64,000 nucleotides of DNA from Gracilinema caldarium (GTDB taxonomy: Bacteria; Spirochaetota; Spirochaetia; Treponematales; Breznakiellaceae), in assembly GCF_029265695.1 (NCBI RefSeq), contig NZ_JAJUHW010000007.1, positions 1-64,000 of the forward strand, written 5' to 3'. Position 1 is the stretch's first letter; each line of letters opens with the position of its first letter. Positions 13,256 to 15,523 of the stretch are shown piece by piece. The notes under the pieces are model-generated. The model was not told the origin of the DNA. It did no database searches and saw only the letters and a list, made by a program, of their open reading frames with translations. A program made the translations under genes and the position numbers.

Positions 13256-13440
13256 GGTCGATACCCCCGCTTAAGATCCGCAATTTGTTGTTCTAGGTAG
13301 GTTTTAAGCGTCTCGAGCTGGTCGATATAGCGGCCCATAGATGCAATAGCGGCCTCCCGCCGCTCAGATTCCTTTTCAAGCCGGATAACCCGCTCTTCCA
13401 ATTCCTTTACATATGGATGGAGACGGATAAGCGACTTCAT
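13252..13440 (-). CDS. Small coiled-coil early protein
   Basis: A 62-residue protein that is almost entirely heptad-patterned and highly charged (LEERVIRLEKESERREAAIA, then YIDQLETLKTYLEQQIADL). It overlaps the BRO gene upstream and the transposase gene downstream by 4 bp each, so all three are probably coupled. I do not recognise a family. It could be an oligomerisation partner of the transposase or of the antirepressor. Confidence 0.6.
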   Translation of the reverse strand: MKSLIRLHPYVKELEERVIRLEKESERREAAIASMGRYIDQLETLKTYLEQQIADLKRGYRP

Positions 13441-14135
13441 GCCTCACCCTCCTTTTTCACACCGACACCGCGGGCTGCACGGGCAATAAAAGCATCTCGT
13501 TCTTCTTCAGTCATCGTTGCCCAATTGGCAAGGAATTCCTCTTCTTCTTCGGGAGTCACATACCAGGGATAGACCTTCCGATAGGTCTCGATGGGGAGCG
13601 GGAGCCCTTCCACATAGGTTTTGCCGTCGGGGCCGGTGGTGGGGACTACCTTTTTGGGGCGCCGGGTAAGGGGCTCGAAGTTTTCTGGTCCCAGGTACTG
13701 CTTACAGACCCGGCGGGCACTGCGGATACCAAAGGTCTGGCGGGCTTCCCGCATAAAAGCCGCCGCTTCGGCAAGGCTGGGCCGTCCGGGCTTTTCCGGT
13801 TTTCCGGATCCGACCGCGTAGCTTCCGGTTTTGCGGATAGCAGGCAGTACCTCGTGGGTAATCCAGCGCTTGAACGCCTTTGCATCGGGCTTGTTTGAGG
13901 TAAGAACCAGGCTATAGAGCCCGGGCTCATTCACAAGCCAGACGTTCCGCATTTTTGATGATACAAATAATTTTTGTATCATCTTCTCATCATCATCAAG
14001 CCGCTGGAGGCTCATGGATACGTCGGAAAGCCCGAGTATGTCGCACACATAGCGGGCAACCCACCATGGTTCATTCTTCTGGTCCATCAGGACAGGGCAG
14101 TCGTGGCCGTTAAAGGAGAATTTCACTTCGTTCAT
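13437..14135 (-). CDS. BRO-family phage antirepressor
   Basis: A 232-residue protein with an N-terminal BRO-N domain (about 5-110): PWWVARYVCDILGLSD, LVNEPGLYSLVLTSNKP and FKRWITHEVLPAIRKTGSY are the characteristic segments. The C-terminal half contains a second helical region (about 115-160) with FGIRSARRVCKQYLG. BRO-type proteins often antagonise a phage repressor or alter host transcription. It lies immediately after the Ner-like gene in the leftward operon, opposite the repressor gene. Confidence 0.82.
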   Translation of the reverse strand: MNEVKFSFNGHDCPVLMDQKNEPWWVARYVCDILGLSDVSMSLQRLDDDEKMIQKLFVSSKMRNVWLVNEPGLYSLVLTSNKPDAKAFKRWITHEVLPAIRKTGSYAVGSGKPEKPGRPSLAEAAAFMREARQTFGIRSARRVCKQYLGPENFEPLTRRPKKVVPTTGPDGKTYVEGLPLPIETYRKVYPWYVTPEEEEEFLANWATMTEEERDAFIARAARGVGVKKEGEA

Positions 14136-14392: not shown

Positions 14393-14575
14393 AATAGAAG
14401 TACCTCCTTGCCCCTCCGGGCGGGTGATGTTAGCTAGAAAGGGGCCGGTGGGTGGCTCCTTTCTTTTTTTAGCCTAAAGGTCGCACAAGCGACATCCGAT
14501 AGTTTGATTATCGTTGGATTTTCCAAATTTGTCAAGCAAAAAAGTTCTAGAAATACAAACTTTTTAGGAGAATGT
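14393..14575. promoter_or_regulatory. Divergent early/repressor control region
   Basis: This 183-bp region separates the leftward early operon from the rightward repressor gene. It contains dyads CGATA...TATCG (about 14498-14514) and AAAAAGT...ACTTTTT (about 14539-14565), which are candidate operators. A weak rightward promoter TTGTCA (14529-14534), 17-bp spacer, AATACA (14552-14557) could drive the repressor. Confidence 0.5.
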
Positions 14576-15523
14576 ATGGAATATGCAAACAGAATTGAAA
14601 AGATTTTGGATTATATGAACATTAATCAGACAGAATTAGCTAGGATTCTAGGTGTTTCCAGAGGAATAATTTCCGAATTTTCTAGTGGGGCTCGTGAGCC
14701 GTCAAAGGATTTTTTGTTTGCAATATCCAAAGTATTAGGGGTAAGTATCGACTGGTTCCTCACCGGCGAGGGGGAGATGTTCCTCCCAGGGCGGGATCCC
14801 CGCAAAAAGGAAGCGCCGACAGAAAGCGCCGAAGCGGAGAAATGTAACACTGTGTTACATTTGCCGACGGATGCTCATCAGCTCAAAAACGACACCGTGT
14901 CGCATTTGCCGGCAGAGCCCAAATATGACACTGTGTCATATTTGCCGCCCGAATCCACTGCCCTTACGGCGAGCCGAGGCTTGGACATTATGGGCGGCGG
15001 TGGCGGCGAGATTGCGGATCCCCGTGAAATTGTGGTCTACCGGTTCCAGAGGGGGCACCCGGTACCCATGGAAGTGCGGGAGCCAGACCCTGAAGGGGCG
15101 GTGTTGCTCCCTCTCTGGTCCCAGCCAACCGCCGCGGGCCCCGGACAGATGCCCACCCAGCTAGCCGAGACCGAGCGGAGCATCCCGGTACTGTACACTC
15201 TCCTTGGGTACCGCCGACCCGAAAACTGCGCCCTGGTGCGGGTGGTCGGCGACAGCATGAGCGACGTGGGCCTCTTTAACGGCGACTACGTCCTCTTTGA
15301 CCGATCCGACCGTTCAGGTGACGGCATCTTTGTCATCAGCCTCTTTGGGGAAACCCGGGTAAAACGCCTCCAGTACCGCCTGGCGGATAAGCGGATAATT
15401 ATCGCCAGCGAAAACACAAAGCGCTATCCCGAGCCGGAAATCGTCCCCTTTGACTTTATCCAGGAAGGAAGCCTGCTTATCCATGGCCGAGTCTTTGCGT
15501 GGCTCCACCGGCATCCGTATTAG
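14576..15523 (+). CDS. Phage repressor, XRE-type HTH plus LexA/S24 peptidase
   Basis: A 315-residue lysogeny repressor. Residues 1-70 are a Cro/C1-type HTH (NQTELARILGVSRGIISEFS). Residues about 190-315 are the S24 self-cleavage domain with the catalytic serine in VVGDSMSDVGLFNGD and lysine in ETRVKRLQ, so induction by the SOS response is likely. The linker contains three near-repeats of (N/D)TVxxLP, each written in DNA as an almost perfect palindrome (14840-14943). ATG 14576 is preferred because TTTAGGAG precedes it and the HTH begins there; the frame is open further upstream. It is divergent from the early operon. Confidence 0.9.
   Translation: MEYANRIEKILDYMNINQTELARILGVSRGIISEFSSGAREPSKDFLFAISKVLGVSIDWFLTGEGEMFLPGRDPRKKEAPTESAEAEKCNTVLHLPTDAHQLKNDTVSHLPAEPKYDTVSYLPPESTALTASRGLDIMGGGGGEIADPREIVVYRFQRGHPVPMEVREPDPEGAVLLPLWSQPTAAGPGQMPTQLAETERSIPVLYTLLGYRRPENCALVRVVGDSMSDVGLFNGDYVLFDRSDRSGDGIFVISLFGETRVKRLQYRLADKRIIIASENTKRYPEPEIVPFDFIQEGSLLIHGRVFAWLHRHPY
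14840..14949. repeat. Three in-frame DNA palindromes inside the repressor gene
   Basis: AAATGTAACAC-T-GTGTTACATTT (centre 14851), AAAaaCGACAC-C-GTGTCGcaTTT (centre 14896) and AAATATGACAC-T-GTGTCATATTT (centre 14932). Two are perfect over 11-bp arms and one over the inner 6 bp plus the outer 3 bp. Arm differences are compensated on the other arm. Each is followed by GCCG. Centre spacings are 45 and 36 bp, both multiples of three. Confidence 0.85.

Follow-up and report, generated by a model that had tools for sequence, protein, structure and literature searches.

In-frame palindromes with covarying arms in the linker of a Gracilinema caldarium prophage repressor and in the unrelated DUF3102 gene family

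We propose, with moderate confidence, that the linker of a prophage repressor of Gracilinema caldarium is written by three copies of a coding hairpin, in which the self-complementarity of the DNA, rather than its sequence or the encoded peptide, would be maintained by selection for structure. The sequences show that pairing survives the divergence of the arms, both in two reading frames and across six repressors and the unrelated DUF3102 family. Constraint on coding DNA normally lies on the protein. Here a second code is superimposed on it in two unrelated gene families, with most units at the maximum of pairing that the protein permits and with arm codons changing in complementary pairs. This provides a clear test case, either for selection acting on structure alone in bacterial genes or for template switching holding a palindrome over long evolutionary times.

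Three palindromes between the HTH and S24 code

The window (the whole 64-kb stretch of DNA that was analysed) contains the repressor gene and the three linker units as follows.

14576..15520, + strand: repressor gene, matching Pfam PF01381 (HTH_3), PF07022 (Phage_CI_repr) and PF00717 (Peptidase_S24), and PHROG_4 (transcriptional repressor)
14840..14862, + strand: unit 1, 23-bp palindrome AAATGTAACAC-T-GTGTTACATTT, 11/11 pairs, peptide KCNTVLHL, read from the sequence
14885..14907, + strand: unit 2, AAAAACGACAC-C-GTGTCGCATTT, 9/11 pairs, which is the ceiling for its peptide KNDTVSHL, read from the sequence
14921..14943, + strand: unit 3, AAATATGACAC-T-GTGTCATATTT, 11/11 pairs, peptide KYDTVSYL, read from the sequence

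The repressor has 315 residues (stop codon at 15521-15523), and in a Pfam scan the HTH (HTH_3, Phage_CI_repr) is N-terminal and the S24 peptidase C-terminal; the presence of both an HTH and a Peptidase_S24 domain places it among the LexA/CI-type S24 repressors. The genes around it match phage transposase, anti-repressor and large terminase, therefore the prophage is taken to be transposable and Mu-like. An AlphaFold model of the repressor has a mean pLDDT of 44.3 past residue 80 (three sequences) and no result rests on it.

Units 1 to 3 are odd 23-bp palindromes around a single centre base, read in frame between the HTH and the S24 code. An earlier note on this DNA had placed three palindromes here, in frame and with start-to-start distances of 45 and 36 bp, and position, frame and spacing are confirmed. 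Units 1 and 3 are complete (11/11), unit 2 is imperfect, its two mismatches being forced by its own amino acids. The TTTGCCG tail, which the same note had included in the repeat, turned out not to be general: it is missing from the units of two of the related repressors described below (G254 and G137) and from most units of two others (L139 and L140). Compared with 200 mononucleotide shuffles, the window holds two perfect 23-mer palindromes (0.02 expected) and three 23-mers with at least 10/11 pairs (0.44 expected), two of these three being located in the repressor linker.

The anti-repressor gene (- strand, 13437-14135) carries an in-frame inverted repeat of its own, GATGATACAAA-AATTA-TTTGTATCATC, at 13957-13983. 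This repeat is unchanged in the paralogous prophage on contig C74, in a surrounding region that is 88.7% identical between this one pair.

Related repressors with the same linker design

Five further repressors have a hairpin linker, making six in all with 18 units, one to six per gene and mostly 36 bp apart. The own genome (88 contigs, 3.04 Mb) supplies one of the five, a paralogue on contig C74. It shares 97-98% protein identity with the window repressor in the S24 domain and only 40% in the HTH, and the third codon positions of the S24 code differ between the two prophages at 65 of 183 codons. Its linker contains six palindromes with new arms, e.g. AAATCGGACAC/GTGTCCGATTT and AAATGGGAAAC/GTTTCCCATTT, which start 36, 36, 36, 48 and 36 bp apart. 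The repressor of a spirochaete MAG (G254, locus L068) has one unit, that of G137, from another family of the same order, has two (36 bp), and the viral contigs L139 and L140 have four (35, 36 and 37 bp) and two (36 bp), respectively; L141 has the same sequence as L140 in a second contig and was counted once.

More distant S24 repressors lack linker symmetry. No perfect palindrome with 8-bp arms was found before the GDSM motif in other S24 repressors in two of the three homologue scans, in which several loci repeat one gene or overlap. Isolated 23-mers with 9/11 pairs occur among them in L015, L148 (two) and L162. Loci L019, L021, L024, L029 and L142 yielded no ORF with an S24 motif in one homologue scan, and the homologues L012/L013 (the same as L066/L067) end at contig edges before the linker. 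Since most of its members are without it, the hairpin is dispensable for S24 repressors as a class. Near relatives with altered arms, on the other hand, stay symmetric, the reverse of the solitary copies amid asymmetric relatives that the earlier note had named as fatal to its reading.

By eye, half sites resembling the left arm and without a right arm are seen in the linkers of L068 and L140 (e.g. CAAAAAGACAC and CAAAATGACAC in G254); these could be decayed or nascent units. Upstream of the L018 repressor stand three 23-bp palindromes, AGTGGCTATAATTTATAGCCGTT (the final copy ending in GAT), 41 bp apart, which are probably true operators of another treponemal repressor.

Pairing is kept while the arms change

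Across the 18 repressor units 179 of 198 cells are paired, compared with 26-51% when the register is slid. Swapping whole right arms between units gives 134.9 ± 5.1 pairs (maximum 160 in 20,000 swaps). Cells in which both partners have changed number 32, vs 8.3 in shuffles (none of 500 reaching the observed value), a count that overstates the independent events, as the units share ancestry. In the nine units of the gene and its paralogue alone there are 14 such cells vs 4.0 in shuffles (0/500, with the same ancestry), which bears out the claim of the earlier note that differences in one arm are compensated in the other.

The peptide does not account for the pairing. Synonymous recoding of the first 12 units gives 76.0 ± 4.4 pairs (maximum 93 in 20,000), vs 120 of 132 observed. 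Pairing stands at the ceiling set by the peptide in 16 of the 18 units (the first 12, plus v1, v2, v3 and v4), and x1 and x2 fall one pair short of it. Pairs that join two third codon positions (columns 3, 6 and 9) are matched in all 14 units that share the common frame, while control windows elsewhere in the six repressor genes show 28% third-third pairing and none of the 1448 exceeds 7/11. The four remaining units, v1, v4, x1 and x2 of L139 and L140, are read in a different frame and retain the palindrome; therefore the constraint is on the DNA and not on the peptide. The earlier suggestion that the dyad is constrained beyond the protein is thus supported by the recoding, the double changes and the control windows, and also by the DUF3102 units (below).

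If the loop is taken as 3 nt and the stem as 10 bp, the repressor units have 90.6% of their cells paired, again with 32 double-changed cells (subject to the same shared ancestry). The pair beside the centre is broken in x1 and x2, one-sided breaks occur in p1 and p4, and no G-U pair is found in 198 cells. Some sequence conservation is seen at the ends (AAA/TTT) and in the core (AC-N-GT). An excess of A.C over G.T mismatches in the repressor units (11 to 0), hinting at wobble on the other strand, was dropped as it is absent in DUF3102.

The same anatomy in DUF3102 genes

A DNA pattern made from the repressor units matched L073, a viral gene in which Pfam recognises a DUF3102 domain, and a protein search gave 14 further DUF3102 loci, on plasmids of alphaproteobacteria and cyanobacteria and on viral contigs; one DUF3102 search used two peptide patterns, one of them overlapping the hairpin, and both leave synonymous positions free while fixing amino acids. 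Measured against the first row of the alignment, many of these genes have 38-64% identity. The palindrome is again 23 nt long and in the same frame, and occupies one site after a conserved FM.VA..F helix, where it spans the codons from a Lys that never varies to a Leu, replaced by Phe in one case. The geometry is that of the repressor units: AAA...TTT ends, a 10-bp stem and a 3-nt loop. Three examples are given here.

Nostoc: DUF3102 unit AAATCGGTAAATTTTACCGATTT, peptide KSVNFTDL
L195: DUF3102 unit AAAAGTGAAATAATTTCACTTTT, peptide KSEIISLL
L197: DUF3102 unit AAATCCCGAAACTTTCGGGATTT, peptide KSRNFRDL

Eleven of the 15 loci have at least 9/11 pairs, the remainder being L186 (8), L196 and L199 (7) and L187 (6). 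In total, 139 of 165 cells are paired in the 15 units, vs 90.8 ± 5.4 on recoding (maximum 113 in 20,000), and 129 of 154 without L073, the locus retrieved by a DNA pattern. The peptide maximum is reached in 13 of 15 units. Third-third pairs are matched in 42 of 45 cases; the 1503 control windows taken from these loci reach 31%, and each of them stays at or below 8/11. Cells changed on both sides number 18, vs 5.1 in shuffles (0/500). When the units are treated as a stem of 10 bp closed by a 3-nt loop, pairing amounts to 89.3% of cells, with a single G-U among 150 stem cells. The pair adjoining the centre is matched in just 6 of 15 units, which implies a loop of three bases.

The earlier note had raised the possibility of a palindromic element residing in several genes. 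The recurrence of the same anatomy in an unrelated family agrees with this; dispersal of the Rickettsia type does not follow from it (see below). A common origin of the DUF3102 and repressor hairpins, by transfer, is possible. The near-identity of p3 to the L073 unit (21/23) was rejected as evidence of such an origin, since L073 was retrieved with a repressor-derived pattern and the null matches the left-arm identity in 1880 of 20,000 trials.

Promoter region and possible module exchange

Two features upstream of the linker are relevant to the function of the units.

14514..14526, no strand assigned: likely operator palindrome TTGGATTTTCCAA, between the two boxes of the leftward lytic promoter (-35 at 14530-14535, -10 at 14507-14512), which was assigned by eye
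14515..14741, no strand assigned: segment left unaligned by BLAST between the two prophages of the genome, comprising the operator and most of the HTH code, with flanks 83-89% identical

The palindromes in the upstream 130 bp, such as TTGGATTTTCCAA in the window, ACACCATCGGTGT in G254 and GTCTAGATGTAGAC in L139, are unlike the linker units. Phage operators repeat the same motif at the regulated promoter; in none of the six repressors do the inspected upstream palindromes match the gene's own linker units. It is very improbable that the units are sequence-specific binding sites, i.e. intragenic operators of the repressor or of a Ner-like protein as the earlier note had suggested. Repressors bind palindromes, and the ends and core of the units are partly conserved. 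However, the arms differ among units of one gene (six in C74), the upstream palindromes are of another kind, the units persist across a change of HTH class, and DUF3102 is a different kind of protein.

By amino acid identity there are three HTH classes (window/G137 69%, C74/L139 53% and G254/L140 48%; 25-41% between classes), the third being the weakest, as L140 is also 41% identical to C74. The two S24 classes are clearer (77-98% within, 28-45% between). All six combinations of HTH and S24 class exist, each with hairpins at the join. The hairpins might accordingly be thought of as a junction that promotes the exchange of operator-plus-HTH modules with S24 modules, changing phage immunity, yet this is hardly tenable: in the closest pair the unaligned segment stops some 100 bp short of unit 1 at its right breakpoint, and repressors without hairpins also combine different HTH with similar S24 domains, as seen by eye.

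A short hairpin at 14480-14493, downstream of the leftward lytic promoter, has counterparts within the 130 bp upstream of the other repressors, with arms that differ yet pair across related phages: GTCGC/GCGAC (window and C74), GGTTG/CAACC (G137 and L139), CCCCCGT/ACGGGGG (G254) and GGTAAA/TTTACC (L140). From these arms it appears to be a covarying leader hairpin.

Searches for dispersed copies

Exact and loose motif searches of the own genome and its relatives gave no dispersed copies. With a covariance model, strong matches in the own genome were confined to the two repressors (150 of 414 first-look candidates scored), and nothing convincing was obtained in 195 genomes of the family, of which ten, the own included, match at E ≤ 0.1. 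Three of the nine other matching genomes were inspected, and L057 and L058 proved not to be the linker element. L059 (G176), a weak match, has a AAATGACAAA/TTTGTCATTT stem with a 6-nt loop, located between GCCGGC and TTTTGCCG. A dispersed element of the Rickettsia type in the host genome, another proposal of the earlier note, is therefore not supported, as strong matches among the candidates scored are limited to two repressor genes.

In motif searches, the sole other match among 147 genomes (G006) is within or antisense to a long ORF and has no palindromic flanks; 15 of 392 genomes match, all but the own with two mismatches each (judged from the table of matches), and in a further search 51 of 390 genomes match (judged, apart from the own genome, from the matched letters). 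A DNA pattern fixing most of the arms led to the inspection of ten loci outside the known repressor contigs, which look like chance except L174, L178 and the intergenic L180. Two 10/11 palindromes have the form AAATGTA...TACATTT: L174:7289-7311, within the N6_N4 DNA methylase gene of a phage (KCNSVLHL), and L178:11085-11107, in the last part of a short ORF (KCTTLVHL); these two and L073 were recovered with palindrome-derived patterns and are biased accordingly. Weak phage and plasmid matches were taken as chance; among these, H37 is an integrase without a palindrome by eye.

A proposed coding hairpin and its alternatives

We consider self-complementarity to be the conserved property, because the arms vary within and between genes, pairing is kept and the frame may change. 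The proposed hairpin of 23 nt, with a 10-bp stem, an AAAT/ATTT foot, a 3-nt loop and a 36-bp period, would form in single-stranded DNA or as a cruciform. By analogy with DGR target hairpins, it might be used by a structure-reading factor of the mobile element; at a minimum, selection would act on its structure within a flexible segment. A triloop is expected to leave the pair beside the centre unmatched, as it is in most DUF3102 units (6 of 15 matched) and in x1 and x2. The one-sided breaks in p1 and p4, the four DUF3102 loci with 6-8 of 11 pairs and the absence of the hairpin from most S24 repressors count against this reading. The number of repeats may vary as 12-codon units are duplicated in tandem or lost. 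A wider reading, possible but more doubtful, is that unrelated phage and plasmid genes across phyla carry a new type of hairpin in their coding DNA, 23 nt long and in a fixed frame, with a 10-bp stem, a 3-nt loop and an AAAT...ATTT foot, which would stand next to DNA-binding domains and be read by its fold, not its sequence, through a mobile-element factor.

Repair of the arms by template switching is the main rival: fold-back synthesis (quasipalindrome correction) would keep the arms matched in a tolerant linker or loop, with the hairpin itself unselected. Such switching makes the arms of inverted repeats in coding DNA alike and produces multi-amino-acid changes (PMC8604942); it accounts for the double changes, the missing G-U pairs and the independence of frame, and the left-arm-like half sites seen by eye in G254 and L140 are in line with it. 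Nevertheless we regard it as somewhat unlikely. The rest of the window has only one other 23-mer with at least 10/11 pairs (expectation 0.44), hence no genome-wide mutational drive is visible, and the same length, position and ends across diverged DUF3102 genes are long-lived for an unselected, deletion-prone structure. Selection is modestly favoured over template switching because there is no general palindrome excess in the surrounding 64 kb and because length, ends and place are kept through deep divergence.

Mobility as a palindromic coding cassette, exchanged horizontally among unrelated phage and plasmid genes in the manner of RPE or PARCEL, is improbable. It would fit the agreement of repressor linkers with DUF3102 genes in 23-nt geometry, frame and ends, the tandem number varying from 1 to 6, and the 10/11 palindromes in the L174 methylase gene and the L178 ORF tail, though these last, with L073, carry the bias of palindrome-derived patterns. 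Against it, strong matches in the own genome stay within the two repressors, the 195 family genomes hold nothing convincing, and one conserved site in most DUF3102 members denotes an old part of the gene rather than a fresh insertion. Hairpins had also been among the options of the earlier note, as RNA. A hairpin is supported as one option, whereas its RNA form is disfavoured by the scarcity of G-U, and a role in the repressor messenger (ribosome pausing, protection or exposure of the message) is quite improbable. RNA folding of the linkers does give the expected stems for most units, and the hairpins directly follow the code of the DNA-binding domain; no Rfam 15 family model matches the hairpin, however, and G-U pairs number 0/198 in repressors and 1/150 in DUF3102 even though a third-third G-U is often neutral for the protein. 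DNA is favoured over RNA because G-U pairs are nearly absent.

Comparison with known coding palindromes

Searches on phage repressor linkers with palindromes, on DUF3102 and on covarying coding inverted repeats, in literature lying mostly outside subscription journals, returned no description of the element. We place it as a variant beside the known coding palindromes, because it lacks a defining feature of RPE and of PARCEL each. Rickettsia RPEs are about 150 bp long, with 44 found in one genome, in unrelated genes (PMC10969869). They share with our units a palindromic DNA that is read in frame within genes (here in two frames), and differ in size, ours being a 23-bp unit with a 36-bp period, and in their dispersal over unrelated genes, compared with one gene type in the host genome here.

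PARCELs are tandem coding repeats with dyad symmetry and variable number, linked to mobile elements (PMC2996958). Tandem coding repeats with dyad symmetry are also what the repressor linkers contain. However, PARCELs are 25-residue, amphipathic and of the DUF285 type, their dyads being imperfect and variable in length and phase, whereas here a fixed 23-nt hairpin recurs with a 12-residue (36-bp) period and a different peptide; the Pfam scan of the repressor gave no match to DUF285, the PARCEL marker (DUF285/TIGR02167).

Template-switched inverted repeats in yeast coding genes (PMC8604942) resemble our units in the homogenisation of arms in coding DNA; they represent a mutational signature, in contrast to a conserved element at fixed gene positions. 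The nearest mechanistic precedent is the hairpin/cruciform of the DGR target in phage BPP-1, whose stem structure matters while the stem sequence is free to vary (PMC3240598); it too resides in phage DNA. The DGR hairpin has a conserved 4-nt GRNA loop and a GC-rich stem, and the units described here have a 3-nt loop and an AT-rich foot.
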